From: Thermoplasmata archaeon
GTDB taxonomy: Archaea > Thermoplasmatota > Thermoplasmata > Methanomassiliicoccales > Methanomethylophilaceae
DNA length: 37,244 bases
Reading direction: 5' to 3'
Assembly: GCA_015063165.1 (NCBI GenBank)
Contig: SUSZ01000024.1
Span: forward strand, 1-37,244
Position numbers and translations under genes: made by a program. Below are positions 4,732 to 25,038 of the stretch, one piece after another (the first letter of the stretch is position 1; every line of letters begins with the position of its first letter). The notes beneath the pieces are model-generated. The model made no database searches. It saw nothing but the letters and a program-made list of their open reading frames with translations, and was not told the DNA's origin.

Positions 4732-7017
4732 ATGGGACGTAGAGAGGACAACGCGAAGAAAGCGGTCGAACTGATGAAGCACCAGGAGCTCATCAGGAAC
4801 CTCGGAACCGCAGCGCATATCGACCACGGAAAGACCACTTTCTCCGACAACCTGATCGCAGGTGCCGGAATGATGTCTTCCGAGACCGCTGGAGAGCAGC
4901 GCTTGCTGGACTACGACGAGCAGGAGGCGGCCCGTGGAATCACCATCAACGCGGCTTCCGCTGCGATGGTCGTTCCTTACAAGAACCCCAAGACCAAGAA
5001 AGAGGAGCACTACCTCGTGAACCTCATCGACACTCCCGGTCACGTCGACTTCGGAGGAGACGTCACCAGGGCCATGAGGGCTCTGGACGGTGTGTACATC
5101 CTGTGCTGCGCCGTCGAGGGAATCATGCCTCAGACCGAGACCGTCATCAGGCAGGCTCTCAAGGAGAGGGTCAGGCCTATGCTCTTCATCAACAAGGTCG
5201 ACAGGGCCATCGTCGAGCAGCAGCTCACGCCCAAGATGATGATCGACAAGTTCTCGAAGATCATCACCCAGTTCAACCAGAAGATCATGGACATCCTCCC
5301 CGCCCCTCTGAACAAGGAGTGGCAGGTCAGCCTCCAGGACGGTACCGTCGCTCTCGGATCCGCCTTCAACAACTGGGCGGTCTCCATCCCCTACCTCCAG
5401 AGGCCCGAGGTAACCGCCAAGGCTCTCGAGCTGGCGCCTGAGATCAAGGGAAGCCTCAACGGCAAGCCCTTCAACCTCAACACCGTCTTCGAGATGTGCG
5501 GAATGCCCGACGGACAGGAGAAGCTCGCCAAGATCATCCCCATCGCGGACGTCGTCCTCGAGATGGCCATCAACCACATCCAGAACCCCGTCGAGTCCCA
5601 GAAGATCCGTATCCCCACCATCTGGAAGGGAGACCTCAACAGCGACATCGGAAAGCAGATGCTGAACTGCGACCCCAACGGAGAGGTCGCGATGATGGTC
5701 ACCAAGATCATCATGGACAAGCAGGCTGGAGAGATCGCTATCGGAAGGCTGTTCTCCGGAACCGTCACCAAGGGACAGACCCTGTACATCTCCGGAATGC
5801 CCAACCCCCAGAGGGTCCAGACCGTCGCTCTGATGGTCGGAGCCGACAGGACCCCCATCGAGTCCTGTAAGGCCGGTAACATCGTCGCGCTGACCGGACT
5901 CAAGGACGCCGTCGCGGGATCCACTGTCTCCTCGATCAAGGACATGGAGCCTTTCGAGAAGATGACCCACTACTCCGAGCCTGTCATCACCAAGGCCATC
6001 GAGGCTAAGAATATGGCGGACCTGCCCAAGCTGGTCGAGGTCCTTAGGGTCATCGCCAAGGCCGATCCTTCCCTGAACATCGAGATCAACAACGAGACCG
6101 GGGAGCACCTCATGTCCGGAATGGGAGAGCTGCACCTCGAGATCACCGAGTACAGGATCATCAACGAGCAGGGAGTCGACATCATCTCCTCGCCTCCTAT
6201 CGTCGTGTACCAGGAGTCCGTCTCCGGAACCAACGCCAACCCTTTCGAGGGTAAGTCCCCCAACAAGCACAACAAGTTCTACTTCCAGGTGGAGCCTCTA
6301 GAGGAGTCCGTCAAGGACGCCATCCGCAAGGGAGACATCGACGTCGAATCCAAGATCAAGGACCCCAAGGCCCTCGCCAAGCAGCTGATGGACCTCGGAA
6401 TGAACGACGTCGAGGCCAAGGGAGTCGTCGCGTTCAAGAACAACAACATGCTCGTCGACTGCACCAAGGGTATCCAGTACCTGCACGAGACCATGGAGCT
6501 CGTCAAGCAGTCCTTCGAGGAGGCCATGACCAAAGGACCTCTCGCCAACGAGAAGGTCGCCGGAGTCAAGGTCAAGCTCATGGACGCCAAGCTCCACGAA
6601 GACACCATCCACAGAGGACCCGCCCAGATCATCCCTGCAGTCAGGGACGGTATCTACGGAGCCATGTGCCAGGCAGGAAGGATACTGCTCGAGCCCATGC
6701 AGAAGGTCTTCATCAGCGTCCCTCCCGACTACATGGGAGGAGCCGTCAACCTGATCAACCAGCGCCGCGGAGCCATCCTGGACATGGGACAGGACGGAGC
6801 TGACTCCACCGTCACCGCGAAGTGCCCTGTGGCCGACATGTTCGGATTCTCGTCCGATATCCGTGGATCCACCCAGGGACGTGCCATCTGGTCCATCGAG
6901 AACGCCGGATTCGAGAAGGTCCTCCCCGACCTCCAGAAGAAGGTTGTCACCGAGATCAGGACGCGCAAGGGTCTGAACCCCGAGCCGTACGACGACCGCT
7001 ACTACTCCGGTCTGTAA
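4732..7017 (+). CDS. fusA: Translation elongation factor EF-2
   Basis: A 761-residue EF-2, the GTPase that drives ribosomal translocation. The G1 motif AHIDHGKT is at 28-35, followed by DTPGHVDF and NKVDRA. His627 (codon 6610-6612) in TIHRGPAQIIPAVR is the site converted to diphthamide in archaea and eukaryotes, which bacterial EF-G lacks. The open frame begins at a GTG at 4726, but that codon overlaps the GGTGAG ribosome binding site. The ATG at 4732 is therefore preferred. The protein is slightly longer than most archaeal EF-2 (about 730). It lies in the str operon with 12 bases between it and rpsG. Confidence 0.97.
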   Translation: MGRREDNAKKAVELMKHQELIRNLGTAAHIDHGKTTFSDNLIAGAGMMSSETAGEQRLLDYDEQEAARGITINAASAAMVVPYKNPKTKKEEHYLVNLIDTPGHVDFGGDVTRAMRALDGVYILCCAVEGIMPQTETVIRQALKERVRPMLFINKVDRAIVEQQLTPKMMIDKFSKIITQFNQKIMDILPAPLNKEWQVSLQDGTVALGSAFNNWAVSIPYLQRPEVTAKALELAPEIKGSLNGKPFNLNTVFEMCGMPDGQEKLAKIIPIADVVLEMAINHIQNPVESQKIRIPTIWKGDLNSDIGKQMLNCDPNGEVAMMVTKIIMDKQAGEIAIGRLFSGTVTKGQTLYISGMPNPQRVQTVALMVGADRTPIESCKAGNIVALTGLKDAVAGSTVSSIKDMEPFEKMTHYSEPVITKAIEAKNMADLPKLVEVLRVIAKADPSLNIEINNETGEHLMSGMGELHLEITEYRIINEQGVDIISSPPIVVYQESVSGTNANPFEGKSPNKHNKFYFQVEPLEESVKDAIRKGDIDVESKIKDPKALAKQLMDLGMNDVEAKGVVAFKNNNMLVDCTKGIQYLHETMELVKQSFEEAMTKGPLANEKVAGVKVKLMDAKLHEDTIHRGPAQIIPAVRDGIYGAMCQAGRILLEPMQKVFISVPPDYMGGAVNLINQRRGAILDMGQDGADSTVTAKCPVADMFGFSSDIRGSTQGRAIWSIENAGFEKVLPDLQKKVVTEIRTRKGLNPEPYDDRYYSGL

Positions 7018-7020
7018 ACC

Positions 7021-7066
7021 TTATATACCAAACCCTTTATCGCTAACGTATCATTCCTTCAGGAGG
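7021..7066 (+). promoter_or_regulatory. Internal promoter and ribosome binding site before tuf
   Basis: The 56-base gap between fusA and tuf contains TTATATA (7021-7027), a good TATA box. It also has AGGAGG (7061-7066) seven bases before the tuf ATG. An extra promoter here would allow EF-1A to be made in excess over the upstream proteins. Confidence 0.55.
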
Positions 7067-7073
7067 AAGAAAA

Positions 7074-8330
7074 ATGGCAGAGAAAGAGCACATGAATCTG
7101 GTCATCATCGGCCACGTCGATCACGGAAAATCCACCCTCACCGGAAGGATCCTGCTCGAGACCGGTGCAATCGACCCGCACATCGTCGAGAAATACAAGA
7201 AAGAAGCAGAGGAGAAGGGAAAGGGATCCTTCTACTTCGCTTGGGTCATGGACGGACTCAAGGAGGAGAGGGAGAGAGGAGTCACTATCGATGTCGCTCA
7301 CAAGAAGTTCTACACCGACAAGTACTACTTCACCGTCATCGACGCTCCTGGACACCGTGACTTCGTCAAGAACATGATCACCGGAACCTCCCAGGCCGAT
7401 GCCGCCATCATCACCTGCTCCGCTATCGAGGGACCCCAGGCTCAGACCAAGGAGCACGTCTTCCTCGCCACCACCCTCGGTGTCAAGCAGATCATCGTCG
7501 CTATCAACAAGATGGACGCCGTCAAGTACGACCAGGCCAAGTACGACGAGGCCGTCGCCGCGATGAAGAAGCTGTTCGCCATGATCGGAAACAAGGCCGA
7601 GAACATGCCCTTCATCCCCGTCTCCGCATACATGGGAGACAACATCAAGACCGCTTCCGCCAACACCCCCTGGTACAAGGGACCCACCCTCATCCAGGCT
7701 CTGGACCAGCTCGTCGTCCCCAAGAAGGAGACCGACAAGGCCCTCAGGCTGCCCGTTCAGGACGTCTACACCATCACTGGAATCGGAACCGTCCCTGTCG
7801 GACGTGTCGAGACCGGTATCCTCAAGCCCAAGACCAAGGTCATCTTCGAGCCCTCTCACGTCACTGGTGAGGTCAAATCCATCGAGATGCACCACGAGCA
7901 GATCCCCCAGGCCATTCCCGGAGACAACGTCGGATTCAACGTCGGCGGAGTCGCCAAGAACCAGATCAAGAGGGGAGACGTCGCCGGACCCGTCGACGCC
8001 GCTCCTTCCGTCGCTAAGACCTTCACCGCTCAGATCATCGTGCTGAACCACCCCTCGGTCATGACCGTCGGATACACCCCTGTGTTCCACGTCCACACCG
8101 CCCAGGTCGCGTGCCAGCTCGTCGAGATCATTTCCGCCCAGCGCGCTGGAAAGAAACTCGAGGACCTCAGCTTCCTCAAGAACGGTGACAACGCTATCGT
8201 CAAGTTCAAGCCCACCAAGCCCCTCGTCATCGAGCCCGCCAAGGAGTTCGGACCCCTTGGAAGGTTCGCCATCCGTGACATGGGACAGACCGTCGCTGCA
8301 GGTGTCTGCATCGAGGTCGAGAAAGCCTGA
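7074..8330 (+). CDS. tuf: Translation elongation factor EF-1 alpha
   Basis: A 418-residue aEF-1A, which delivers aminoacyl-tRNA to the ribosome. G1 is GHVDHGKST (13-21), followed by the DAPGHRDF G3 motif and the NKMD G4 motif. The extended switch I region ([25 protein letters not shown], read in parts) and [16 protein letters not shown] mark it as the archaeal/eukaryotic factor, not bacterial EF-Tu. Domains 2 and 3 follow with [13 protein letters not shown] and the C-terminal [11 protein letters not shown]. Its own TATA box and a perfect AGGAGG suggest high expression. rpsJ begins 11 bases after the stop. Confidence 0.97.
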
Positions 8331-11920: not shown

Positions 11921-11996
11921 GGGCTGGTAGATCAGCTGGAAGATCGCTTGCTTTGCAAGCAAGAAGTCGCGCGTTCAAATCGCGCCCAGTCCACCA
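11921..11996 (+). tRNA. tRNA-Ala (anticodon UGC)
   Basis: A 76-base sequence folds into a full cloverleaf. It has a 7-bp acceptor stem, a GATC/GATC D stem, the anticodon stem CTTGC/GCAAG with loop TTTGCAA, a five-base variable loop and the T stem GCGCG/CGCGC with a TTCAAAT loop. The anticodon is TGC. The third acceptor pair is G3-U70, the main identity element for alanyl-tRNA synthetase, which supports the call. The CCA end is encoded in the gene. There is no intron. A pyrimidine-rich tract after 11996 may serve as terminator. Confidence 0.97.
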
Positions 11997-12064
11997 CTCT
12001 CCTTCTTCTGATTGTTTTCATATCCCTACGTGTCATACCACATGTGTTTCAGAGGGAGCGACGC

Positions 12065-13429
12065 ATGAAATGCCCTAATTGTTCCGAAGATTTGGAGCTC
12101 GACGATGTTCTGGATTCCGGAACATGCTGGCATTGCGGCTTCGGGATCTCCCAAGATGATGTCTTGCGGCTATTCGACGGCAAGGAGCTGGAGGGCGTCC
12201 TGGACAGGCTCAAGGACGAGATGTTCATCCTGTACGAGTCGGGGGATGCTGCTGAGGCGCAAGCCCTCGCCAAAAGGATAATCCGCCTGGACGGCTCCGA
12301 TGCCGACGCATGGTACATGGATGGAGTCTGCACATTGGACCTCAGCGATTATCCCCACGAGACGGATTCGATGAAGGATGCCATGGATTCCTTCGGCAGA
12401 TTCAAGGATTTGACCGGGTTGGATGTCAACATCGACGCCGAGGCCTTCAAAAGATATCTCGAAGGCGCGGAGAAAGGCGATGTCCAGGCCCAGCGCAGGG
12501 TCGGCGTCATGTACAGCCGCGGGATGGGGATCGAGCAGTCCCAGGACAAGGCCATGGAATGGTTCCAGAAGGCCTATGGGCGTGGATTCAAGGATGTCCA
12601 TCAGGATATCTCCGACGCCCTCAGGATGATGGATTCCAGTCGTTACACGGTCCCCTCGTTCGTGGACGAGATATGGGACGGAATGTTCGAGAGGTCTCGC
12701 TTCGTTTCCGTCACGATTCCCGGATCGATCACGCGCATAGGCGACAGGGCGTTCGCGGATTGCGACAAGCTGGAATCCGTGGACCTTCCTAGTAATCTGA
12801 AGACCATCGGGAAGGAGGCGTTCTATCGCTGCGGGTCCCTGAGATCCGTAACGATACCCGAATCGGTGACATCGATAGGCCCTCATGCCTTCTACAACCA
12901 TGGGATGGAGAAGGCCACCGTTCTGAGCAAGCGCATCTCCGACAGCAGGTCCCGCTACATGAGGCCTGGGGAGGAGATCTTCTCCGAGCGCACCGAGGTG
13001 GACTGGGGGCTTCCGGAGACTGCTCCCGGCCATACGTCGTCTGCGCCTACTTACGTTCCCACGCCGGAGCCCGAGGATCTTCCAGCCATGGAAGCCGTCG
13101 TGGATAGGACATGGATCCGTGTAGGCATGGCGCTCACAGTAATGATCCCCCTGATAGTGCTCGGCATGATATGGAACGAGTTCTACGATGATCCTATCCT
13201 GGCCATGGTGCTGTCTGTCGCGCCCGCTATGTCTATGCTATTTCGTTTCAATTCCGGTATGCTGCTTATAGCTTGTGCCATAGATTCCCTTATGATTACC
13301 CTGAGCATGATTGTGGGGCTAGTCGACGGCACATTCTTCGCTTTGACGCTGGCGGTCATAATCGATCTGGTAGCCGTCATCGTCATGTTCCTCCTGGCAG
13401 CTATCTACCCCGGCAGAGCGAAGTCATGA
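12065..13429 (+). CDS. Zinc-ribbon, Sel1-like and BspA-type LRR protein with C-terminal membrane helices
   Basis: A 454-residue mosaic protein of unknown function. A zinc ribbon comes first (Cys3, Cys6, Cys21, Cys24). A helical TPR/Sel1-like region follows, with GDVQAQRRVGVMYSRGMGIE as the clearest Sel1 unit. Two or three BspA-type (LRR_5) repeats come next, such as ITRIGDRAFADCDKLESVDL and LKTIGKEAFYRCGSLRSVTI. About four hydrophobic helices end the protein, so the N-terminal domains probably face the cytoplasm. The ATG at 12065 is chosen because it places the first CPNC at the N-terminus. An upstream in-frame ATG at 11948 lies inside the tRNA and is impossible. The next gene is a paralog that begins seven bases after the stop. 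Confidence 0.8.
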   Translation: MKCPNCSEDLELDDVLDSGTCWHCGFGISQDDVLRLFDGKELEGVLDRLKDEMFILYESGDAAEAQALAKRIIRLDGSDADAWYMDGVCTLDLSDYPHETDSMKDAMDSFGRFKDLTGLDVNIDAEAFKRYLEGAEKGDVQAQRRVGVMYSRGMGIEQSQDKAMEWFQKAYGRGFKDVHQDISDALRMMDSSRYTVPSFVDEIWDGMFERSRFVSVTIPGSITRIGDRAFADCDKLESVDLPSNLKTIGKEAFYRCGSLRSVTIPESVTSIGPHAFYNHGMEKATVLSKRISDSRSRYMRPGEEIFSERTEVDWGLPETAPGHTSSAPTYVPTPEPEDLPAMEAVVDRTWIRVGMALTVMIPLIVLGMIWNEFYDDPILAMVLSVAPAMSMLFRFNSGMLLIACAIDSLMITLSMIVGLVDGTFFALTLAVIIDLVAVIVMFLLAAIYPGRAKS

Positions 13430-13436
13430 CCTATCG

Positions 13437-15002
13437 ATGATCGAGCCACATCCTGATTTCGAATTATTTTCGATTCTCGTTCGATTGGATTCAAATATCC
13501 GTCAGCCATGCCTATACCGGGATTCCGATGGGCCTCATATCGGTAATATTCCGTATTGCTTTGCTGAAGTCGCTCTGGATGATTCTGAAGACTATGGGGT
13601 TTGCATCGGCTGCGGTTTCAGGATCGAGATAGAGAAACCCGTCAAGGTCGGTTCTCCCGAACCGGTGCCTGAGAAGGAGACGGAGGAGCCGAAGGAGGCT
13701 GTCCCGCCGAAAGTCGACCACATTGACGAATCAGAGGTTCTGAAGGACGAGATGTTCTCTTATTTCGATTCCGGAAACCTTGCGAAGGCCCATGAGATCG
13801 TCAAGAAGCTGCTCTCGATGGACAGCACCGATGCCGACGCATGGTACATGGACGGGGTCTGCACCCTCGATAGGAGCGAGTATCCTCTCGAAACGGACTC
13901 CATAAAAGATGCTGTGGCCTCCTTCAAAAGATTCACGGACCTGACCGGTCTGGAAGTGAACATCGACGGCGAGGCCTTCAGGAGGTATCTGAAAGACGCT
14001 GGTAAGGGGGATCTCCAGGCCCAGCGCAGGGTAGGGGTCATGTACAGCCGCGGGATGGGGGTCGAGCAGTCCCAGGACAAGGCCATGGAATGGTTCCAGA
14101 AGGTTTACGATCACGGATGCGCGATAGTCCGCGCAGACATGTCCGACGCTCTCAGGATGATGGATTCAAAGCATTACACGGTCCCCTCGTTCGTGGATGA
14201 GATCTGGGACAGGATGTTCGAAGGGACCTCGTTCGTGTCCGTCACGATTCCAGAGCCGATATCCCGCATCGGGGACAGGGCGTTCGCGAACTGCGTCAAT
14301 CTGGAGAAGGTGGAGCTCCCCAGAACTCTGAGATCCATCGGGAGCGAGACGTTCTACCGCTGCAGGTCGCTCACATCGATGGACATCCCCATCACGGTCA
14401 GGATTATCGGCGACAGGGCGTTCTACCAGTCCGGAATGGAGGAGCCGCCCATGACGAGCCCTGATCCGCCTAAGAAGGAGTCTGTCTACAGGGGCCCCAC
14501 ATCCAAGCCATCGGGCATCCCCAAGCCCGAGCCTGCAGTCGGCACCGTACCGAGGCCCACGCCTGTATCGAAGCCTGCCCCGACTCCGACTTCCATGCCC
14601 AAGCCTGGCCCCAGTCCGGCTCCCGCTCCAAAGCCCAGCCCCGAATCGACCAGCGCTTACAAGCCCAAATCGAAATCGGACAGCATTCTGATAAAGGGCG
14701 ACCTGCTGGTCTTCAGGCTCGTGACCTCGATATTCCCGCTGATATGCATAGCGATGCTTCTGAGCACCTTCGGTTCGTTCATCGGGGCGGGCTTTTGCGT
14801 GGCTCCGGCCCTCGGCATCCTCTTGCGTGTTTCGGATAATCTGTCGGCCTTCTCGTGTTTCATCGACCTCATCCTGGCGATGTGCGGAATATTCCTGGGC
14901 TTCGCGTTCAGCGTGTTCCATATTCTGATGATCCTATGCATCATAGACGGCATAGCGCTGTACATGCTGCATAGGCTCGCCGGTAAGCTGGGATCGGCAT
15001 GA
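13437..15002 (+). CDS. Tandem paralog of the preceding gene, with a damaged zinc ribbon and a Pro-rich linker
   Basis: A 521-residue paralog of the 12065 product with the same Sel1-like region, LRR_5 repeats and C-terminal membrane helices. A long Pro/Lys/Ser linker (about residues 345-420) precedes the membrane part. The N-terminus is odd. Residues matching the zinc ribbon start about 40 codons in, at IPYCFAEVALDDSEDYGVCIGCGF. The first cysteine is replaced by Ile and the ancestral start methionine is gone. The roughly 40 residues upstream have AT-rich codons unlike the rest and may be former spacer now read as coding. No better ATG exists, so the true start could also be a non-ATG codon downstream. 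The gene ends at a shared terminator facing alaS. Confidence 0.7.
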   Translation: MIEPHPDFELFSILVRLDSNIRQPCLYRDSDGPHIGNIPYCFAEVALDDSEDYGVCIGCGFRIEIEKPVKVGSPEPVPEKETEEPKEAVPPKVDHIDESEVLKDEMFSYFDSGNLAKAHEIVKKLLSMDSTDADAWYMDGVCTLDRSEYPLETDSIKDAVASFKRFTDLTGLEVNIDGEAFRRYLKDAGKGDLQAQRRVGVMYSRGMGVEQSQDKAMEWFQKVYDHGCAIVRADMSDALRMMDSKHYTVPSFVDEIWDRMFEGTSFVSVTIPEPISRIGDRAFANCVNLEKVELPRTLRSIGSETFYRCRSLTSMDIPITVRIIGDRAFYQSGMEEPPMTSPDPPKKESVYRGPTSKPSGIPKPEPAVGTVPRPTPVSKPAPTPTSMPKPGPSPAPAPKPSPESTSAYKPKSKSDSILIKGDLLVFRLVTSIFPLICIAMLLSTFGSFIGAGFCVAPALGILLRVSDNLSAFSCFIDLILAMCGIFLGFAFSVFHILMILCIIDGIALYMLHRLAGKLGSA

Positions 15003-15044: not shown

Positions 15045-16823
15045 TCAGTCGAACTTACCGACGACGGCCTTGATGCGTCTGACGCCGGCTGCGGAGCTCT
15101 CCTCCTTCTTGATCTTGAATCCCTGGAGCTCCGAGGTGTTCTTGACGTGGGGGCCTCCGCAGATCTCGCAGGAGACGTCTCCCATGGTGTAGACCTTGAC
15201 CATCTCGCCGTACTTGTCGGTGAAGACTCCGATGGCACCGCGCTTCTTGGCCTCCTCGTAGGTCATCTCCTCGCATACCACGGGGATGGCTGCTTTGATA
15301 GCATCGTTGACGTACTTCTCGACGTTGGCGAGCTCCTCGGGGGTGCACTTCCTGTCGAGGTTGAAGTCGAATCTGAGCCTCTCGGCGGTGATGTTCGATC
15401 CCTTCTGCTGGATGTCGGGGCTGACGAACTTCCTGAGGGCAGCGTTGAGCAGGTGGGTGGCGGTGTGAAGCTTGGTGGTCTCCTCGCTGTGGTCCGCCAG
15501 ACCTCCCTTGAACTGCTGCTCCGCTCCGGAACGGGAGGTGTCCTGGTGGGTCTTGAACCTGCTGTTGAAGTCCTCCATGTCGACCTTCAGGCCTTTCTCG
15601 GCGGCGAGCTCCACGGTCATCTCGATGGGGAATCCGTAGGTGTCGTACAGCCTGAAGACGGTCTCTCCGTTCAGAACGGGGCTGTCCCCGTTCTCTGCGA
15701 CCATCTGGTCGAACCTTCTGAGCCCTTTCATGACGGCCTTGTGGAACTTGAGCTCCTCGTTGTTGATGTTGTTGATGATGAACTCCCTGTTCCTCTCGAG
15801 CTCGGGGTAGGCCTTGCTGTACTCGGCGATGATGCCCTCGGCGATCTTCTGCATGAAGGGCTGCTCGTATCCGAGCTTGGACATGTATCTGCTGGACCTC
15901 CTGATGAGCCTCCTGAGGATGTATCCCTGTCCCACTTTCGCGGGGACGACTCCGTCTCCGAGGATGAAGGTGGCGGCCCTCATGTGGTCCGCGATGATCC
16001 TGAACGCCTTGGTGTCGTCTGGGTTTTCTCCGTACTTCCTTCCGGAGATCTCCTCGATGTTGGAGATGATTCCCTGGAAGAGAGGGGTGTCGTAGACCGT
16101 CTCCTTCCCGTTGAGGATTCTGAGGATCCTCTCGAGTCCCATTCCGGTGTCCACGTTCTTCTGCTTGAGAGGGGTGAATTTGCCCTGAGCGTCCTTGAAG
16201 TACTGCATGAAGACATTGTTCCAGATCTCGGTGTACTTCCCGCAGTGGCAGGAAGGTCCGCAGTCGGGTCCGCATTTGGGCCTGCCGTCGTCGTAGAAGA
16301 TCTCGGTGTCGGGTCCGCAGGGCCCAGTCTGGCCGGCCGGCCCCCACCAGTTGTCCTCCTTTCCGTAGAAGAAGATCTGGTCGTCCCTCATCCCGTGGCT
16401 CTTCCAGATCTCGGCGGTCTCGTCGTCGCGGGGGATGTCTCCCTCTCCGGCGAAGGCGGTGACAGCGAGGCTGTTCCTGTCCATCTTGAGGACGTCGGTG
16501 AGGAACTCGTAGCTGAATCCGATGGATTCCTTCTTGAAGTAGTCCCCGAGGGACCAGTTGCCGAGCATCTCGAAGAACGTGAGGTGGCTGGCGTCTCCGA
16601 CCTCGTCGATGTCCCCGGTCCTCACGCATTTCTGATAGTCGGTGAGCCTCTTTCCTGCGGGGTGCTTCTCTCCGAGCAGGTAGGGGACGAGGGGATGCAT
16701 CCCGGCGGTGGTGAACAGGACCGTGGGGTCGTTCTCCGGTATGAGGGGGGCCGAGCTGATGAAGCTGTGCCCCTTCGATTTGAAGAAATCGATGTATTTC
16801 TCTCTCATTTCTTGAGCGTCCAT
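15045..16823 (-). CDS. alaS: Alanyl-tRNA synthetase, short form without C-Ala domain
   Basis: A 592-residue AlaRS; full-length enzymes have about 870-900. The class II catalytic core begins at MDAQEMREKYIDFF and includes LTFFEMLGNWSLGDYFK and VDTGMGLERIL. The editing domain has HTATHLL and CEICGGPH, supplying the His, His, Cys and His metal ligands. The protein stops right after GVRRIKAVVGKFD, where the coiled coil and C-Ala domain of other enzymes would start. A Cys-rich insert (KCGPDCGPSCHCGKYTEIWN) in the core could bind zinc. These features resemble short bacterial forms rather than standard archaeal AlaRS, which suggests transfer (inference). The start is the ATG at 16823, preceded on this strand by GGAGTG and a TATA-like CTATATTTTATC (about 16867-16878). 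Confidence 0.9.
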   Translation of the reverse strand: MDAQEMREKYIDFFKSKGHSFISSAPLIPENDPTVLFTTAGMHPLVPYLLGEKHPAGKRLTDYQKCVRTGDIDEVGDASHLTFFEMLGNWSLGDYFKKESIGFSYEFLTDVLKMDRNSLAVTAFAGEGDIPRDDETAEIWKSHGMRDDQIFFYGKEDNWWGPAGQTGPCGPDTEIFYDDGRPKCGPDCGPSCHCGKYTEIWNNVFMQYFKDAQGKFTPLKQKNVDTGMGLERILRILNGKETVYDTPLFQGIISNIEEISGRKYGENPDDTKAFRIIADHMRAATFILGDGVVPAKVGQGYILRRLIRRSSRYMSKLGYEQPFMQKIAEGIIAEYSKAYPELERNREFIINNINNEELKFHKAVMKGLRRFDQMVAENGDSPVLNGETVFRLYDTYGFPIEMTVELAAEKGLKVDMEDFNSRFKTHQDTSRSGAEQQFKGGLADHSEETTKLHTATHLLNAALRKFVSPDIQQKGSNITAERLRFDFNLDRKCTPEELANVEKYVNDAIKAAIPVVCEEMTYEEAKKRGAIGVFTDKYGEMVKVYTMGDVSCEICGGPHVKNTSELQGFKIKKEESSAAGVRRIKAVVGKFD

Positions 16824-16921: not shown

Positions 16922-18154
16922 TCAGACCGCCCTCTTCAGGCAGTCCTCTATCGGGCCCGAGTCTATGACGACCCTGATGCCCAGGTTCTTCAGGACTTTG
17001 GACGGCATGGGCCCTATCTCTCCGACCACGACGCATCCGCAGTCTCCCAGGGAGGAGACTATCGACTCGATGTGCTTGCGGTGGCTCTGTCCGGAGACGT
17101 CCTCCTTCACGTCGACGAAGGCTTCTCCTGCAGGCTCGAACGACCCGTTCCTGGCCTTGTAGATGAGGAACCTCTTCGCGTTGCCGAATCCGGAGTCGAC
17201 GTTCTTTCCGTCCGCGGACGCCACGGCGTATCTGCTCGAGTCCCTGGTGCCTTCCAGGTTGATCATCTGGGGTCCAGGGCCGCAGCCGCTGGAGCATCCT
17301 CCCATGTCGGCGAACTCCTGGGACCTGTCCTCCCCGAGGAGGCCTATCGCATCGGCTCTGCAGTGCCTGCAGTGGCGCATCATCCTGACGTCCAGGGAGC
17401 ACTCGTCCATCAGCGCCTTCCTCTCCTCCGGGGTGGGAGCCCTCAGCCCTGCAAACGCGGTGCCTTCCACGGGTATCAGCGGGAGGATGTTCACGATGTA
17501 GACGCCCATCGACTTGACCTTCTTGACCAGCTCCGGGATGTGCTCGTCGTTGATCCCGGGGACCATCACGACGTTGATCTTCACCACCATGCCGAGCTCT
17601 ACGCATCTCCTGATGCCTTCGAGCTGCTTCTCGAGGAGGATCTCGGCGCCCTCCCTCCCTTCCAGCCTCTTCCCGTTCCAGACCACGAACTTGTAGACCT
17701 CGGCCCCGATGTCCGGATCCATCGCGTTCATGGTGACGGTGACGAACTTCACTCCGAGCGAATGGAGCCTGTCCGCGTTCTCGGGCAGCGCGAGGCCGTT
17801 GGTGGAAATGCAAAGGGTGAGATCGGGGAACTCGTCTTTGACCAGCTCGAGGGTGCGGAACGTGTTCTCGTTCGCCATCGGGTCCCCAGGTCCGGCGATG
17901 CCTATGACCCTCAGCTCGGGGATCCTCTCCTTTACCAGGCGGATCTTCTCCACAGCCTCTTCGGGCGAGAGGACCTCGCTTGTTACTCCTGGGCGCGATT
18001 CGTTGGAGCAGTCGTACTTCCTGTTGCAGTAGTTGCATTGTATGTTGCAAGCCGGTGCTACGGGAATGTGCATCCTGGCGAACTTGCGGTGGGCGTCCTC
18101 GTTGAAGCACGGGTGCTCCGACAGCGCTTTCATCGCATCGGTCTCGAGTGGCAT
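16922..18154 (-). CDS. nifB: Nitrogenase cofactor biosynthesis protein NifB with fused NifX-like domain
   Basis: A 410-residue radical SAM protein. NifB fuses two [4Fe-4S] clusters with a SAM-derived carbide to make NifB-co, the core of nitrogenase cofactors. Cys16 lies in EHPCFNEDAHRKFARMH. The radical SAM CX3CX2C motif is Cys36, Cys40 and Cys43 in PACNIQCNYCNRKYDC. Cys262 and Cys265 in MRHCRHCRADAIGLLGED bind substrate clusters. Residues about 305-410 form a NifX/NafY-like domain joined by a CSSGC-containing linker; many characterised archaeal NifBs lack this domain. No other nif gene is present here. A TATA-like CTTTATCC (18177-18184, minus strand) predicts a leaderless start. alaS lies 98 bases downstream with its own TATA. 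Confidence 0.92.
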   Translation of the reverse strand: MPLETDAMKALSEHPCFNEDAHRKFARMHIPVAPACNIQCNYCNRKYDCSNESRPGVTSEVLSPEEAVEKIRLVKERIPELRVIGIAGPGDPMANENTFRTLELVKDEFPDLTLCISTNGLALPENADRLHSLGVKFVTVTMNAMDPDIGAEVYKFVVWNGKRLEGREGAEILLEKQLEGIRRCVELGMVVKINVVMVPGINDEHIPELVKKVKSMGVYIVNILPLIPVEGTAFAGLRAPTPEERKALMDECSLDVRMMRHCRHCRADAIGLLGEDRSQEFADMGGCSSGCGPGPQMINLEGTRDSSRYAVASADGKNVDSGFGNAKRFLIYKARNGSFEPAGEAFVDVKEDVSGQSHRKHIESIVSSLGDCGCVVVGEIGPMPSKVLKNLGIRVVIDSGPIEDCLKRAV

Positions 18155-18791: not shown

Positions 18792-21700
18792 ATGGAAAAG
18801 AACAAGATGATTGTCCTCATCGTCGCCGCCATCGCGATTATCGCGCTGATCGCGGCAGCGGTGTTGCTAACATCGGGGAACGGCGACAAAGATAAGAGCG
18901 TCACCGGCGTATCTTTGGATAAAACCAGCCTGAACCTCGAGGTCGGAGGAACCAGCACCCTCGTGGATACTGTTTCTCCCTCCGACGCAACCAACAAGAA
19001 CGTCACTTGGTCCACCAGCAACGCCTCCGTCGCTACCGTTTCGAGCGGAAAAGTGACAGCCGTGTCTGTGGGTGAGGCCACGATCACAGTGACCACCGAA
19101 GACGGCAAGAAGACCGCCACATGTAAGGTCACGGTCTCGGGATCCTCTGAAGTGAAAGCTACAGGAGTCGTCCTCAGCTCCAACTCGCTCAGCATTGAGA
19201 AAGGCGAGACCGCGACTCTGTCCGCTACCGTCATGCCTTCTGGAGCTTCCCAGGTCGTGAACTGGTCCTCCAGCGACGCTACAGTTGCCACCGTCAACAA
19301 CGGTGTCGTCACCGCTGTCGGCGCAGGAATCGCCAACATCTCCGCGACCACCACCGACGGCAGGATCACCTCCATCTGCGCGGTCACCGTCATCAGCACC
19401 GACGAGGTCGTCACCATCGACAAGGCCATCCTGAAGGTCTACGGAAACGCCAACGGCGACAAGGTCATCGACAACAGCGATGTGACCCTCATCCAGTCTC
19501 TGATCGATCTCGGAGCGACAGTCACAAGCGAGAACAAGATGGCCGACGCCAACAACGACGGCTACATCAACTCCGCCGATGTCGATGTCGTCAAGAAGAT
19601 CATCGCCCGCGAGTCCACTCCTATCTGGCACATCAACTACTTCGACCAGGACTCCAACGGGACCATGGACGACGTTCTCGTCCAGACGCAGTTCCCCATC
19701 AAGTCCCTGATCATGACCGGATCCTCCAACTCCTTCATGCTCCTCTGGATGCTCGGAGTGAAGGAGGAGGTCAAGGGCGCCTGCTACAGCAGCTCCGTGG
19801 ACACGTATTTCAAGAACTACTATCTCGACACCGACAAGGTCCAGAAGATCGGGACCTCCTCCACCACCCTCCCCTTCGAGAACGGAAAGGTCGGAACCTC
19901 CAACATCATCGCCGAGGAGAACGTCACCGCTGTCCTCACCGACTGGAACAGGACCTACATCACCAACTGGCAGGACTACGAGAACTTCGGAGTCGACGTC
20001 GTCAGGGTCTCCGCCGCCGCGGTCGACATGGATGTCTTCTCTCACGGAGCTCTCCTGCTCGGCCTCCTGCTCGACAAGGTCGACAGGTCTGTCGAGCTCA
20101 TCGACTTCTACAACGATGTCTACGCTCAGGTCGAGTCCAAGGTCACCAACCTCTCCGAGAGCGAGATTCCCAGATTCATCGCGTCCTCCATGACCGGATA
20201 CATCTCCGTCGGCGGATCCGATTACAACAAGGTCGGAACCATGGCCGGAGGAAAGTACGCTCTCGAGAACCTCGACACCGGAACCACCACCAGCATCAAG
20301 ATCGCTGACTACCCCGAGGTCTACAACAACAAGCTGTATAACTTCGACTACATCCTGCACCTCAGGACCGGCAACTTCTACGCCGACGCGGTCGACGCCG
20401 ACAACCTCTGGGACACCTACACTTCGGCATTCGGAGATTGGGAGAAGGGAACCGACGGCCAGTACATCATCTGCGGAGGAATGCCCGTCCCCATGAGGGT
20501 CGCCTATGCTCTCTCCGTCATGCACCCTGACCTCGCCTCCACCGACTGGGCCAACGACCTGCACCAGCAGCTCGTCGACAAGTTCTTCAACGGCGACAAG
20601 CTCGACATAGCCTCCATGGACTTCGTCATCCACAAGGCGTACAGCAGCGCCACTCTCATGGTGCTCGGAAACGCCAACGGGGACGACGACATCAACAACC
20701 AGGACGTCTACATCGTGAAGGGGATCATCGCTGGAAGCCTGAGCTTCGCCGACTACCCCATGGCTGACGCCAACAACGACGGAGTCGTCGACCAGAAGGA
20801 CGTCGACCTCCTTAACAGGATCATCAAGAGGGAGCCCGGCACCGTCTACGTCTGCTGTCTCGATGTCAACGGCGAAGACACCGTCGTCGCTGTCGACTAT
20901 CCCCTCAGGAACGTCGTGACCTACGCCACCAACATGCAGATGCCCGCGCTCTTCGCTAACGGCGGACAGTATATCGCTGGATACTTCTCCTCCACTTACG
21001 ATGTCGCGGAGGGATCCATCAGCGCCGGTGCCGTCGATCTCAAGGGAAGCGCAAGGACCATCACCGACGAGTCTTGGGCAAACTTCACCGCCCTCGATGC
21101 GGCTCTCGTCTCCTCCGGAGGAATCGGAGCAGTCCTCGTCGACCACAGCGGTGTCGCCCAGTTCACCGAGAAGCGCATGGCCGATCTGAAGGCCTCTGGC
21201 ATCCCCATGATCGACTACACCTCCGCTGACGCCACCGACGAGCTCCAGACCGTTCTCACCCTCGGATTCCTCTTCGGAGGAGACTGCGAGACCGTCGCAC
21301 GCGAGTACGCCAAGATCGGATGGGACGTCAAGGACGAGATCGAGAAGGCCGTCGGAAATCTTTCCAATGACGACAAGGTCTCCTACATCTGCGGAACCAT
21401 GTACATCTACGTCTGCGGTGAGTCCTCTTCCTTCAACACCTCTGCCGAGACCGCCGGAGGAATTCCCTACGCCTCCCTGAACTCCGAGTTCGCTTCCAAG
21501 TACACCAAGAACTCTACCAAGATGGAGTCCACCGAGGCCCTCTCCAATTACACTGATGCCGAGATCTTCATCAACAACCGTTCGATGGACTGGGGACTTA
21601 CCCAGGCCGAGACTGTTGAGATGATCAAGGATACCTGGGACCACGACAACAAGGGCGTCTCCTCTAGAGAGTACTTCAAGGACTTCGAGGACAAGCTCGT

Positions 21701-21902
21701 GTACGTCAACAATCTCCTCCCCGGCGGAGTCAAGCTCGCCTACATGGCCCACGCTATGTACGGCGAAGACTTCTCCAGAGAGTGGGCCGACAGCGTTCTC
21801 CAGGCCTACATCGACTGCGGAACCGTTCCTCTGAGCGGACAGACCCTCGACACCGTCCTTGCGCTCATCACCTTCGATGACTACAAGGCAATCGCAAACT
21901 GA
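18792..21902 (+). CDS. Membrane-anchored surface protein with two BIG2, two dockerin-like and two substrate-binding domains
   Basis: A 1036-residue extracytoplasmic protein, probably the binding component of the importer encoded next. A short charged N-terminus and one hydrophobic helix (about 7-27) anchor it; no lipobox cysteine is present. Two BIG2 Ig-like domains follow (about 37-116 and 122-201). Residues 213-275 form a dockerin-like pair of calcium loops (NANGDKVIDNSD 219-230, DANNDGYINSAD 252-263). The first FepB/BtuF-type binding domain spans about 276-612. A second dockerin-like pair (627-638, 659-670) and a second binding domain (about 683-1036) follow. Both binding domains end with a similar helical segment, so the dockerin-plus-binding unit was probably duplicated. 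The ligand is unknown; iron chelates, haem and corrinoids are the usual choices for this class. Confidence 0.82.
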   Translation: MEKNKMIVLIVAAIAIIALIAAAVLLTSGNGDKDKSVTGVSLDKTSLNLEVGGTSTLVDTVSPSDATNKNVTWSTSNASVATVSSGKVTAVSVGEATITVTTEDGKKTATCKVTVSGSSEVKATGVVLSSNSLSIEKGETATLSATVMPSGASQVVNWSSSDATVATVNNGVVTAVGAGIANISATTTDGRITSICAVTVISTDEVVTIDKAILKVYGNANGDKVIDNSDVTLIQSLIDLGATVTSENKMADANNDGYINSADVDVVKKIIARESTPIWHINYFDQDSNGTMDDVLVQTQFPIKSLIMTGSSNSFMLLWMLGVKEEVKGACYSSSVDTYFKNYYLDTDKVQKIGTSSTTLPFENGKVGTSNIIAEENVTAVLTDWNRTYITNWQDYENFGVDVVRVSAAAVDMDVFSHGALLLGLLLDKVDRSVELIDFYNDVYAQVESKVTNLSESEIPRFIASSMTGYISVGGSDYNKVGTMAGGKYALENLDTGTTTSIKIADYPEVYNNKLYNFDYILHLRTGNFYADAVDADNLWDTYTSAFGDWEKGTDGQYIICGGMPVPMRVAYALSVMHPDLASTDWANDLHQQLVDKFFNGDKLDIASMDFVIHKAYSSATLMVLGNANGDDDINNQDVYIVKGIIAGSLSFADYPMADANNDGVVDQKDVDLLNRIIKREPGTVYVCCLDVNGEDTVVAVDYPLRNVVTYATNMQMPALFANGGQYIAGYFSSTYDVAEGSISAGAVDLKGSARTITDESWANFTALDAALVSSGGIGAVLVDHSGVAQFTEKRMADLKASGIPMIDYTSADATDELQTVLTLGFLFGGDCETVAREYAKIGWDVKDEIEKAVGNLSNDDKVSYICGTMYIYVCGESSSFNTSAETAGGIPYASLNSEFASKYTKNSTKMESTEALSNYTDAEIFINNRSMDWGLTQAETVEMIKDTWDHDNKGVSSREYFKDFEDKLVYVNNLLPGGVKLAYMAHAMYGEDFSREWADSVLQAYIDCGTVPLSGQTLDTVLALITFDDYKAIAN
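19428..19616 (+). repeat. Dockerin-like module 1
   Basis: This encodes residues 213-275, with two 12-residue calcium loops of the D/N-x-D/N-x-D type, each followed by a helix (VTLIQSLI, VDVVKKII). It directly precedes binding domain 1 and matches module 2 (20649-20837) in layout and sequence. Confidence 0.8.
20649..20837 (+). repeat. Dockerin-like module 2
   Basis: This encodes residues 620-682, with loops NANGDDDINNQD and DANNDGVVDQKD and helices VYIVKGII and VDLLNRII. It directly precedes binding domain 2. The shared GNANGD...MADANNDG pattern shows common origin with module 1. Confidence 0.8.
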
Positions 21903-21914
21903 TTGAATGAAACC

Positions 21915-21930
21915 GGGGGGATATCCCCCC
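21915..21930 (+). terminator. Perfect GC palindrome between the binding-protein gene and the permeases
   Basis: GGGGGGATATCCCCCC is a perfect 16-base palindrome 12 bases after the binding-protein stop and 19 bases before the permease start. It probably acts as a partial terminator or as a 3' RNA stabiliser, giving more binding protein than permease, as is common in ABC importer operons. Confidence 0.6.
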
Positions 21931-21949
21931 ATTCCCTTATTGTGATAAC

Positions 21950-23038
21950 ATGCGGTATGGTGACGATTCCGAGAAAGAGCGCGTCATTGGCGAATACCAC
22001 CATCAGATCGCCAGGAAGATCATAGTCCTGATAGCTTGCATCATAGGGATCGTCGTCTTCGTGGGGCTCTTCTCTCTGAGCGTCTACGACAACATGACGC
22101 TTTCTGAGGTCTACGAGGTCATCTGGAACCACATAACCGGCGTGACCTATGAGCCTCGCAGCCGTTTCTGGTGGGCCGACCGTTACATCTGGAATACGGC
22201 CATGCCCCACGCGATCGCCGCCATCCTCGCCGGAGCCTCCCTCGCCGTCTGCGGAACTCTCATGCAGGCCGTCATGGGAAACCCTCTGGCAGATCCTTAC
22301 AGCACGGGAATCTCCTCTGGAGCGTGCTTCGGAGCCGTCACCGCCATCGTAATCGGAGTCTCCTTCGCGAGCTTCGCCAACGAGGTCGGCATAGTCGCCA
22401 ACGCGTTCATCGGAGCGCTGATTCCAGCTGCTCTGATCATCCTGATATCGGCCAAGATACGGATGACGCCGGCGACGCTGATCCTTCTGGGTACGGCTAT
22501 CTCTTACTTCTTCAATTCGATGATTACATACCTCATGGTCACAACCGATGCGGACACCCTCAAGAGCGCCTACATGTGGCAGATAGGGAGCCTCGACGGG
22601 ATGACCTGGGGATATATACCGATCATGCTCGGTGTCACCATAGTCGGAACGGTGTTCGTCCTGATGATGGCGAACAAGCTGAACGTCATGTCCCTCGGCG
22701 AGAAGAGCGCCATTAGTCTGGGAGTGGACGTACAGCGCTTCCGCACGGTATGCCTTCTGATCATGGCCTTCATGACCGCCGCCATCGTCTCTTTCACCGG
22801 AATCATAGGATTCGTCGGTCTCGTGGCGCCGCACCTCGTGAGGCTTCTGGTCGGCTCCGACAACAGGTTCGTGATGCCGATCTCCATGGCTGTCGGAGCC
22901 ATTCTGCTCCTGATAGCCGATTACACCGCGTACCAGCTGTCCAACATACCTGTGGGAGTGGTCATGAGCATCATAGGAAGCCCTGTGTTCCTCATCCTTA
23001 TAATGTACCACACTAGAAAGGCGGGTGTTCTGTATTGA
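21950..23038 (+). CDS. FecCD-family ABC transporter permease (first)
   Basis: A 362-residue membrane subunit of an iron-chelate/cobalamin-type (type II) ABC importer. About ten hydrophobic helices are visible. Family motifs include MPHAIAAILAGASLAVCGTLMQ, then NPLADPYSTGISSGA. The cytoplasmic coupling region and TGIIGFVGLVAPHLVRLLVG follow, the last of which contacts the ATPase. The longish N-terminus (MRYGDDSEKERVIGEYHHQ) is cytoplasmic. It starts 47 bases after the binding-protein gene, and its stop overlaps the next start as TTGA. It probably pairs with the second permease as a heterodimer. Confidence 0.93.
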   Translation: MRYGDDSEKERVIGEYHHQIARKIIVLIACIIGIVVFVGLFSLSVYDNMTLSEVYEVIWNHITGVTYEPRSRFWWADRYIWNTAMPHAIAAILAGASLAVCGTLMQAVMGNPLADPYSTGISSGACFGAVTAIVIGVSFASFANEVGIVANAFIGALIPAALIILISAKIRMTPATLILLGTAISYFFNSMITYLMVTTDADTLKSAYMWQIGSLDGMTWGYIPIMLGVTIVGTVFVLMMANKLNVMSLGEKSAISLGVDVQRFRTVCLLIMAFMTAAIVSFTGIIGFVGLVAPHLVRLLVGSDNRFVMPISMAVGAILLLIADYTAYQLSNIPVGVVMSIIGSPVFLILIMYHTRKAGVLY

Positions 23039-24099
23039 TCCTCGATAACGCCACAATAAGGAGGATGTACTCGTCCGAGAACAGGAAGCGCGTGCTGTGG
23101 ACTCTGGCTTTCGTGGCTTTGGCCGCCGTGATGTTCTTCATCACGCTGGGCTTCGGAGTCTACAACATCTCCGTCATGGACGCGATAGGTGTGTTCTTCG
23201 ACCATCTCTTCGGCAACGAGGTCGATCCCAGGGCGGACGAATACGTATGGAACACCAGGCTTCCTCGCGCGCTGGGCGCCATAATAGCGGGCGCAGGCCT
23301 CTCCATAGCCGGAGTCATAATGCAGAACGACTTCAAGAACCCCCTGGCGGAGCCTTACACGATGGGCATATCCTCTGGAGCGTTCCTGGGAGCCGTTCTC
23401 GGGATAATATTGAATATCTCTATCGTCCCGTTCGTCCCCGACGGAAGCAAGGTCATCGTGAACGCCTACCTGTTCTCGCTGCTCCCGGTGGCGATCATCG
23501 CCGCTTTCTCCAAGTTCAGGAAGCTGACGCCGATGAGCATGATCCTCACAGGAATCGCGGTCATGTTCCTGTTCAGCTCGATATGCCAGATCATAATGGT
23601 CACCGCTCCGTCGGAGAGCCTGGCCGACGCCTACGCCTGGAGGGTCGGATCCCTCGACAGGGTTCGCTGGGGCTCGATTCCCATGATGCTGGGGTCGACG
23701 TTGTTCTTCTCCGTGATACTGTATATGTTCGCGGGAAGGCTGAACGTGATGTACGTGGGCGACAGGAGCGTGAAGACACTGGGGGAGAGCCCTATGACCA
23801 TACGTCTGGTCACCATGATCCTCGCATCCCTCTTGACTGCGGGGATAGTGTCGTACACCGGAACCATAGGGTTCATCGGTCTCGTGGGGCCGCACGTCGC
23901 ACGCATATTCGTAGGTTCGAACAATCGCTACCTGATCCCGGCATCTGCCGCCTTCGGTGCAGCTTTCATACTGCTGGCCGACACGATCGCCAAGGTTTCG
24001 GGAATCAACGGGCTGCCCGTAGGGGTCATAAGCTCGATGGTAGGAGGTCCGCTGTTCATGTGGATCCTCATCAGACAGAGGAAGAACGTATGGGCTTGA
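23035..24099 (+). CDS. FecCD-family ABC transporter permease (second)
   Basis: A 354-residue homologue of the preceding permease. RLPRALGAIIAGAGLSIAGVIMQ and NPLAEPYTMGISSGA mark the family, and TGTIGFIGLVGPHVARIFVG is the ATPase-coupling segment. The frame opens with TTG at 23035, overlapping the previous TGA, with a GGCGGGTG ribosome binding site upstream. The next ATG (23065) has AGGAGG directly against it with no spacing, so the TTG start with translational coupling is preferred. The two permeases differ throughout, which points to a heterodimeric channel rather than a recent copy. Confidence 0.92.
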   Translation: MILDNATIRRMYSSENRKRVLWTLAFVALAAVMFFITLGFGVYNISVMDAIGVFFDHLFGNEVDPRADEYVWNTRLPRALGAIIAGAGLSIAGVIMQNDFKNPLAEPYTMGISSGAFLGAVLGIILNISIVPFVPDGSKVIVNAYLFSLLPVAIIAAFSKFRKLTPMSMILTGIAVMFLFSSICQIIMVTAPSESLADAYAWRVGSLDRVRWGSIPMMLGSTLFFSVILYMFAGRLNVMYVGDRSVKTLGESPMTIRLVTMILASLLTAGIVSYTGTIGFIGLVGPHVARIFVGSNNRYLIPASAAFGAAFILLADTIAKVSGINGLPVGVISSMVGGPLFMWILIRQRKNVWA

Positions 24100-24192
24100 G
24101 AGATTCTTTAGAACGCAAGGCGGCGGGTCGCGTTCCAGCGGCCGGAATAACATGTTTAACGAATCAGGATAGGAAATCCAGCAGGTGAGGGA

Positions 24193-25038
24193 ATGGAGCT
24201 TAAAATCAAAGATGTCAGCTTTTCGTATTCGAGCGTGCCTGTTCTTCACGACGTGTCCTTCGAGCTGGGCGGCAACGAGCTTGTGTCGATCCTTGGCCCC
24301 AACGGAGTGGGGAAGTCGACTCTGATACACTGTATCAACAAGATCTTGGCCCCCACCTCGGGAACCGTCCTGATAGACGGGAAGGACGTATCCGAGATAA
24401 AGCTCAAGGAGCTGGCCAAGCAGATAGGATACGTCCCGTACTCCGCCAACGACTCCTTCCCGCTCTCCGTCATAGACACCGTCATGATTGGAAGGCACCC
24501 TCACAGCAAATGGGGCACCCTGGACAAGGACCTCGACATAGTCTACGACACCCTCAGGATGCTCGGGATTTCGCACCTGGCCATGAGGCCTTTCAACGAG
24601 CTGTCCGCTGGTCAGCACCAGAAGGTCATGCTCGCCCGCGGACTGGTCCAGGAGCCGGAGATCCTCCTTCTGGACGAGCCCACCTCGAATCTGGATGTCA
24701 GGCATCAGCTGGATGTCACGAAGATGCTGAAGAGGCTCTCTCGCGAGAAGAACATCCTGATCGTGATGATCAGCCACGACATCAACATCGCGGCGAAGTA
24801 CTCGGACAAGATCATCCTGATGCACAAGGGGTCGGTGTTCGACATGGGGGAGCCGAACAAGGTGATAACGGCAGAGAACCTCCGCACCGTATATGGCGTG
24901 ACCGCAGAGATCACCAAGGATGACGACGCCCCTCATGTGATCCTCAAGGACGCCCTTCCCATGGACGAGGAGGAGGATGATGCCCGCATCGAGGACATCC
25001 ATACCTTCGAAAGCAAGAACGCCGAGACCCAATCCTGA
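24193..25038 (+). CDS. ABC transporter ATP-binding protein, FecE/BtuD type
   Basis: A 281-residue ATPase of the importer. Walker A is GPNGVGKST (about 35-43). The Q-loop region is GYVPYSANDS, the signature is LSAGQ (instead of LSGGQ), Walker B is ILLLDEPTSNLD and the switch histidine is in ISHDINIA. After about residue 240 the protein has an acidic tail (DEEEDD) not needed for catalysis. A 93-base gap without an open frame separates it from the second permease. AGGTGAGG precedes the ATG. It completes a binding protein, two permeases and one ATPase. Its 3' end converges on the regulator gene 51 bases away. Confidence 0.93.
   Translation: MELKIKDVSFSYSSVPVLHDVSFELGGNELVSILGPNGVGKSTLIHCINKILAPTSGTVLIDGKDVSEIKLKELAKQIGYVPYSANDSFPLSVIDTVMIGRHPHSKWGTLDKDLDIVYDTLRMLGISHLAMRPFNELSAGQHQKVMLARGLVQEPEILLLDEPTSNLDVRHQLDVTKMLKRLSREKNILIVMISHDINIAAKYSDKIILMHKGSVFDMGEPNKVITAENLRTVYGVTAEITKDDDAPHVILKDALPMDEEEDDARIEDIHTFESKNAETQS

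Follow-up and report, generated by a model that had tools for sequence, protein, structure and literature searches.

What NifB does in an archaeal genome in which no nitrogenase genes lie beside it is the question raised by a window of 37,244 nucleotides (the whole stretch of DNA that was analysed: positions 1 to 37,244 of contig SUSZ01000024.1, here C38, of assembly GCA_015063165.1), which encodes a NifB fused to a NifX-like domain. The initial annotation had left two branches: either nif genes lie elsewhere in the genome or the NifB product serves another role. The host genome, which is 99.86% complete and comprises 2.28 Mb in 67 contigs, has mcrA (C17:88938-90575), which identifies the host as a methanogen of Methanomassiliicoccales (family Methanomethylophilaceae). 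Among named relatives, the window NifB is closest to proteins of Candidatus Methanomethylophilaceae MAGs that come from the rumen of sheep (81% identity) and the rectum of water deer (66% identity).

The nifB gene of the window and its product

The features discussed below are the following.

16922..18154, minus strand: nifB, ATG start, 410 aa, radical-SAM NifB with a C-terminal NifX-like domain
17309..18139, minus strand: NifB radical-SAM domain (residues 6-282), which holds the NifB motifs and cysteines
16931..17212, minus strand: NifX-like domain (residues 315-408), Pfam Nitro_FeMo-Co PF02579, 52.7 bits (cut-off 26.3)
17189..17191, minus strand: codon of Gly322, in the column of the cluster-binding H35 of A. 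vinelandii NifX
15045..16823, minus strand: alaS (alanyl-tRNA synthetase), next gene downstream of nifB, NF002436, 921.5 bits
Motifs of the window NifB, by residue: HPC 14-16; Cx3Cx2C 36-43; ExRP 52-55; AGPG 87-90; TxTxN 139-143; Cx2CRxDAxG 262-271

The reading frame is intact, has exactly the coordinates initially annotated, and lies on the minus strand, which that annotation had not named. Its product matches the NCBIfam nifB model TIGR01290 with 451.5 bits (cut-off 343.65), a score that excludes chance, and Pfam Radical_SAM with 84.1 bits over residues 30-212. All six NifB motifs of a published list (PMC5715403) were found in the translation, and Cys16, 36, 40, 43, 115, 252, 262, and 265 are invariant across the ungapped rows of an alignment of two-domain archaeal and bacterial proteins; the initial statement that the expected cysteines of NifB are all there is borne out. 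The NifX-like domain, first placed at about residues 305-410, is located by PF02579 at 315-408; against NCBIfam nifX (TIGR02663) it scores 26.5 bits, under the cut-off of 112.

In domain order and radical-SAM motifs, the protein resembles the two-domain NifBs of cyanobacteria, Pseudomonadota, and some Bacillota (43-49% identity), from which it differs in having Gly322 where they have a histidine, and in being encoded in a genome in which nifHDKEN were not found. With the single-domain NifBs of methanogens (6y1x, 7bi7, 7jma/7jmb) it shares the fold and motifs of the SAM domain, whereas their chains of 288-309 aa consist of that domain only and the window NifB adds a linker and the NifX-like domain. 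This contrast between single-domain methanogen and two-domain bacterial proteins, drawn in the initial annotation, agrees with passages of PMC5715403. The predicted structure (mean pLDDT 81.1, pTM 0.65, with weak stretches at 43-59, 285-301, and 352-356) has solved single-domain NifBs as its best Foldseek matches (6y1x, E-value 7.8e-32, TM score 0.94 by target length); because the Foldseek rows leave the aligned part unstated, the model is uninformative on the NifX part.

The alaS gene was already named as the neighbour in the initial annotation. Of 18 host-family loci that we compared, 16 contain it together with nifB, the exceptions being L032, where the contig ends at nifB, and L035; it is absent from all of the nifB loci L036, L038, L039, and L260-L268, which are outside the host family (family membership was read off the SAM-domain tree, and the loci span a few kb). 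We took alaS as neighbourhood only and drew no functional link from it. Elsewhere in the window, positions 18792-25038, divergent from nifB, encode a protein of 1036 aa that has Big_2 Ig-like and dockerin domains, followed by permeases of the FecCD/BtuC type and an ATPase; L027 is the only compared locus in which these ABC genes upstream of nifB recur. Positions 11948-15002 hold two adjacent genes of the same make-up, with BspA-type leucine-rich and Sel1 repeats, directly after a tRNA-Ala gene.

Nitrogenase-like genes of the host genome

None of the genome's matches to Pfam NifH (PF00142) or Oxidored_nitro (PF00148) lies on contig C38, in line with the initial observation that nifHDK, nifE, and nifN are absent from the window. 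Genome-wide, there are seven PF00142 matches over the cut-off (six of at least 204 bits and one of 34.5) and twelve PF00148 stretches at six loci. The H-, D-, and K-type proteins encoded there, twelve in all, stay under the NCBIfam cut-offs for NifH, NifD, NifK, NifE, and NifN: the best scores of host proteins with the nifD, nifE, and nifK profiles are 64, 76, and 44 bits, and the K-like protein of C13 has no NCBIfam match at 1e-5. For comparison, two nif-bearing genomes of the order give 626-675 bits for NifD and 578-599 bits for NifE, and in one such genome the K-type and N-type proteins reach 417 and 254 bits, both under their own cut-offs.

At the C50 locus, the D-type protein is CfbD, which acts in coenzyme F430 synthesis (TIGR03282, 395.3 bits, cut-off 268.4), and the best model for the H-type protein is CfbC (342.5 bits, the cut-off of 402 not being reached). 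Besides this CfbC/CfbD-type pair, the nitrogenase-superfamily genes found in the host are those of five NifH-NifD fusions, each with a K-like partner.

L021:9020-11365: NifH-NifD/E fused protein
L022:3187-5346: NifH-NifD/E fused protein
L023:8633-10720: NifH-NifD/E fused protein
L024:1227-3233: NifH-NifD/E fused protein
L025:8724-10817: NifH-NifD/E fused protein

Such fusions are widespread in the order, a full-length fused ORF being present at 25 of the 29 best-scoring further loci, and Cys95 and Cys130 of their NifH part, the Fe-protein cysteines, are invariant in 30 rows. They were known before, since a table in PMC4153887 names a "fused nifH/nifE" in Candidatus M. intestinalis.

The genome search for nifHDKEN proposed in the initial annotation, for which a full cluster would undo the orphan status of nifB, yielded no canonical set. 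Nitrogen fixation by this genome, for which no canonical nif genes were found, was rejected. The branch that placed nif genes elsewhere falls accordingly, as none of the twelve proteins reaches a Nif cut-off, and the branch that gave NifB another role is supported: NifB occurs across the order without nitrogenase, and a published client other than nitrogenase, the complex that activates methyl-coenzyme M reductase (MCR), is encoded in the host. The orphan status of nifB is real, yet known biology explains it with good support.

MCR activation and other possible clients of NifB

NifB is known in methanogens that have no nitrogenase (passages of PMC8809328 and PMC12176620). The relevant sections of PMC12176620, a 2025 study, describe three [8Fe-9S-C]-type clusters in McrC and Mmp7 of the MCR-activating complex, state that NifB is essential in methanogens even when they have no nitrogenase genes, and propose it as the probable maker of these clusters while asking for more proof of the carbide; its main text does not mention Methanomassiliicoccales.

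In the host genome, the genes for A2, McrC, Mmp3, Mmp6, Mmp17, and Mmp7 are grouped on contig C17 at 70.5-77.9 kb, with mcrA at 88.9-90.6 kb. A2 (740.9 bits), McrC (295.3), Mmp3 (449.5), and Mmp17 (97.5) exceed their cut-offs. Mmp7 scores 305.3 bits, under its cut-off of 349.15, but matches the Mmp7 chain of 8s7v with an E-value of 8.8e-56; its gene is also picked up by second, weaker matches of the McrC model. Mmp6, with 124.4 bits, does not reach the cut-off of 125.95. The MCR activation set A2, McrC, Mmp3, Mmp7, and Mmp17 is therefore encoded in the host. The cluster ligands given for M. maripaludis in the part of PMC12176620 that lists them are C12, H49, C55, and H118 of McrC and H84, C90, and C143 of Mmp7, and all seven are kept in the host proteins when these are compared with the M. 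maripaludis chains (by our reading, the McrC chain numbering is shifted by 36 for a tag, which gives C or H at all four sites).

The distribution of NifB in the order was examined in 147 genomes. Its radical-SAM domain is present in 125 (117 over the cut-off and 8 partial); nine others have weak or NifX-domain matches only, and 13 have no NifB match. Among good genomes, 71 of 74 have the SAM domain, as do all nine single-contig genomes, one of them with an in-frame TAG. This last gene, in a genome of the host family (L256, G034:C1, about 6027-7277, minus strand), has the TAG at the position of Glu65 of the window protein, where pyrrolysine insertion, read-through, or an error are possible explanations. 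Canonical nifD was found in only 6 of the 147 genomes, three over the cut-off and three at 614-625 bits; G015, which is one that carries it, has a second NifB gene, the two copies lying on C12 and C24 (L266 and L267). A different set of 13 genomes gave no match either to the NifH-NifD fusion or to the profile of nifD, and all 13 have NifB, 12 of them over the cut-off. Neither nitrogenase nor the fusions account for the retention of NifB, with the proviso that absence means not found: these 13 genomes show no CfbC or CfbD in those searches, so that distant relatives were missed.

Taken together, an activation complex encoded with seven of seven ligands and a spread of NifB that is independent of nif genes and of fusions make MCR activation the best explanation, and we estimate at about 0.8 the probability that the product of the window NifB serves methanogenesis through this complex rather than nitrogen fixation. 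On the NifB radical-SAM domain, two [4Fe-4S] clusters would be joined with a carbide from S-adenosylmethionine, which is known NifB chemistry. The product would be the [8Fe-9S-C] cluster (NifB-co or L-cluster), to be passed into McrC and Mmp7 of the complex of A2, McrC, Mmp3, Mmp7, and Mmp17, whose clusters would then hand electrons to coenzyme F430 of MCR. That the window NifB makes this cluster and that McrC and Mmp7 receive it is what we infer from the gene content. The role itself has already been proposed, and the present analysis extends the proposal to another order.

Several observations go against this role, among them the ten non-methanogens described below, which have NifB and neither mcrA nor McrC. 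One genome, G010, which is 98% complete, has mcrA and McrC and no NifB match, although the missing SAM domain of G010, G013, and G122, the three exceptions among the good genomes, is possibly due to assembly gaps. Also, nifB is not beside the Mmp genes in the host, where it adjoins alaS and carries a NifX-like domain, whereas in M. marburgensis it follows the Mmp genes according to PMC12176620. In favour of the role, at the level of the class, is a comparison of 400 genomes, 98 of the order and 302 others. McrC was detected in 97 of the 98 and none of the 302, mcrA (pieces included) in 88 and none, and NifB, counted from 139 bits upwards, in 87 and ten. Because mcr is confined to one order in this sample, the co-occurrence of NifB and MCR is a single contrast in the tree, not many.

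A different client would be provided by the host's own nitrogenase-like enzymes, if NifB mainly fed the five fused proteins and these used the L-cluster as NifEN does. These ORFs are 668-781 aa long, each has a K-like partner, and their D part aligns by hhalign with the profiles of NifE (E-value 5e-35) and NifD (4.5e-30). Of the P-site cysteines, 322 and 391 are invariant in the 30 rows and 297 is missing from one, and 27 rows have an extra N-terminal cysteine upstream. In the C27 copy, this residue stands 12 residues before Cys297, a spacing that resembles that of C25 and C37 in NifE; however, the C13 copy lacks the extra cysteine and the spacing differs in C31b and C40. Furthermore, in the C27 copy Phe and Asp stand opposite the cluster-holding cysteines of NifE and NifD, and Lys opposite the histidine of NifD, and the 30 fusion rows have no conserved cysteine at this site. 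With no cofactor-ligand cysteine at the usual cavity, a FeMo-co-like cluster is not expected there in the fusions. On the other hand, Cys25 of NifE receives NifB-co (passages of PMC13128457), and the likeness of the upstream cysteine to it keeps a fusion client alive at a low probability. Given the missing ligands and the 13 genomes that have NifB and no match to any fusion, a place in the fusion systems was not supported as the main role of NifB, and we consider it unlikely.

Outside the order, NifB occurs in ten of the 302 class genomes (257-365 bits, single-domain). None of these ten non-methanogens has a match to mcrA, McrC, or Oxidored_nitro, and no known client was found in them, so that NifB must have some further use there. 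In four, the gene immediately preceding nifB encodes an HGD-D protein.

L242, 2800-4233: nifB ORF behind the HGD-D gene (G159)
L248, 8516-9355: nifB ORF behind the HGD-D gene (G244)
L249, 7706-8692: nifB ORF behind the HGD-D gene (G254)
L250, 825-2258: nifB ORF behind the HGD-D gene (G259)

The copies of G159, G254, and G259 are 60-61% identical to that of G244. NF040772, the model of the double-cubane reductase (cut-off 350), gives 295.8 bits for the G244 copy and 319.7 bits for that of G159, both under the cut-off, their next best families being at 95.5 and 109.2 bits, respectively; a G170 protein passes it with 422.4 bits. Among 35 chosen genomes, a match of at least 296 bits was obtained in all ten NifB-bearing non-methanogens, in none of 14 genomes of the class that lack a strong NifB match (two at 108-119 bits), and in none of 11 genomes of the order, the host included. 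Seven cysteines are common to all ten reductase proteins, and in G286 (f23) the gene before the reductase encodes a NapH-type ferredoxin protein (76.8 bits, under the cut-off). Several points speak against a link between NifB and this reductase. In families f20 and f23, nifB lies elsewhere than the reductase gene. An E. coli control matches NF040772 and not nifB, which indicates that the reductase family as such needs no NifB, and as only four families are involved, the ten genomes are not independent. A NifB-fed double-cubane-type reductase in these relatives is accordingly a tentative proposal, which we hold to be doubtful on balance.

The surroundings of nifB vary among these genomes. In f23 (L244, L246, L247, and L251), it is beside HyuA/HyuB-type hydantoinase genes (families were scanned in L244 only), and a V4R-domain gene is present in three of the four loci. 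In f20 (L243 and L245), NifB is more divergent (258-272 bits) and has PQQ-propeller and FtsX-type genes as neighbours (the family scan covered L245 only); on its other side is a small gene without family match that has relatives in L242 and L248.

That ten relatives without MCR retain NifB together with such a reductase could suggest that, in Methanomassiliicoccales as well, the cluster is made for an enzyme other than the MCR activation complex, but the reductase has no match in any of the 11 genomes of the order tested, and MCR activation accounts for the pattern of the order without it, which makes this quite improbable. Least probable of all is that NifB is a relic of, or is kept for, nitrogen fixation whose genes the assembly missed: nif clusters do occur in the order (in one of the six nifD-bearing genomes, nifD and nifE exceed their cut-offs and are followed by K- and N-type genes), but the host genome is nearly complete and has no match over the Nif cut-offs, and 125 genomes with NifB against 6 with nifD is not the pattern of a relic.

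The NifX-like domain of the archaeal NifBs

With MCR activation as the preferred role, the second domain calls for an explanation of its own. No archaeal NifB-NifX fusion was known to the 2017 survey, as far as its relevant section goes (PMC5715403), and no earlier report of one was found in the literature searched, part of which was represented by excerpts. By the refuting condition that the initial annotation had set, many close archaeal homologs with the fusion, the architecture is not special to the host genome: such homologs run through the order, all of whose aligned NifBs extend into the NifX-like domain, L152 only partly. In an alignment of 138 NifB proteins, 127 extend past residue 380 of the window protein, and the 11 shorter ones comprise the ten single-domain NifBs from other Thermoplasmata and L152, which contains an unread base and reaches residue 370.

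The domain belongs to the family of the NifX/NafY cluster chaperones (PF02579). In passages of PMC13128457, His35 of A. vinelandii NifX binds the cluster, and the histidine is also present in A. vinelandii NifB; by our reading of the HFG motif, its column is that of Gly322. This column has His in 66 of 66 bacterial rows, whereas the 62 archaeal rows (in which the window's gene and some others were entered twice) comprise 37 Gly, 24 His, and 1 Pro (L065, outside the order). Gly is found in every row of the host-family clade, and the other families have mostly His, with Gly in G130 and G133, a pattern that requires two changes when placed on the tree built from the SAM domain only. The window NifB thus lacks the cluster-binding histidine of the NifX fold, which is no requirement for NifB identity, and in this the domain resembles NifY and NafX as these are described in PMC13128457.

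We read the NifX-like domain of the host family, from its sequence, as a carrier-like fold that appears to have lost its cluster ligand. Without the histidine that holds the cluster, docking or regulation is a likelier function than cluster carriage. A section of PMC5715403 reports that the Klebsiella NifB is functional without its NifX-like domain. The loss of this ligand in the host family is a new detail.

In the tree of the SAM domain (87 rows), Methanomassiliicoccales form one clade (96/86) near the bacterial two-domain NifBs. A single clade of all two-domain NifBs is not rejected (p-AU 0.133), and neither is a topology that joins the order to eight single-domain relatives (p-AU 0.15). 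Given that these opposite groupings both stand, that long branches meet in this tree, that other archaeal NifBs are represented by two PDB chains only, and that the NifX-domain tree rests on 107 columns, we claim no direction of transfer.

A broader scenario, which we put forward tentatively and regard as possible but doubtful, is that NifB would be a general supplier of carbide-containing 8-iron clusters in Thermoplasmatota, outside nitrogen fixation: for MCR activation in the whole order and, in non-methanogens with no match to MCR or the nitrogenase family, for a double-cubane-type reductase whose gene adjoins nifB or lies elsewhere in the genome. In the host family, the NifX-like domain would have been repurposed. 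That NifB and this reductase occur together raises the direct question of a new client; if true, NifB would have a third class of client in the reductase. Archaeal NifB-NifX fusions, of which the 2017 survey had none, are documented here in a methanogen order with many gut members, in which most genomes have nifB and few a canonical nitrogenase. For metagenomes of the rumen and gut, this means that nifB on its own should not be taken as a sign of diazotrophy. What looked like a nif orphan puts to the test the 2025 idea of a NifB cluster that was first, and still is, used for methane formation.
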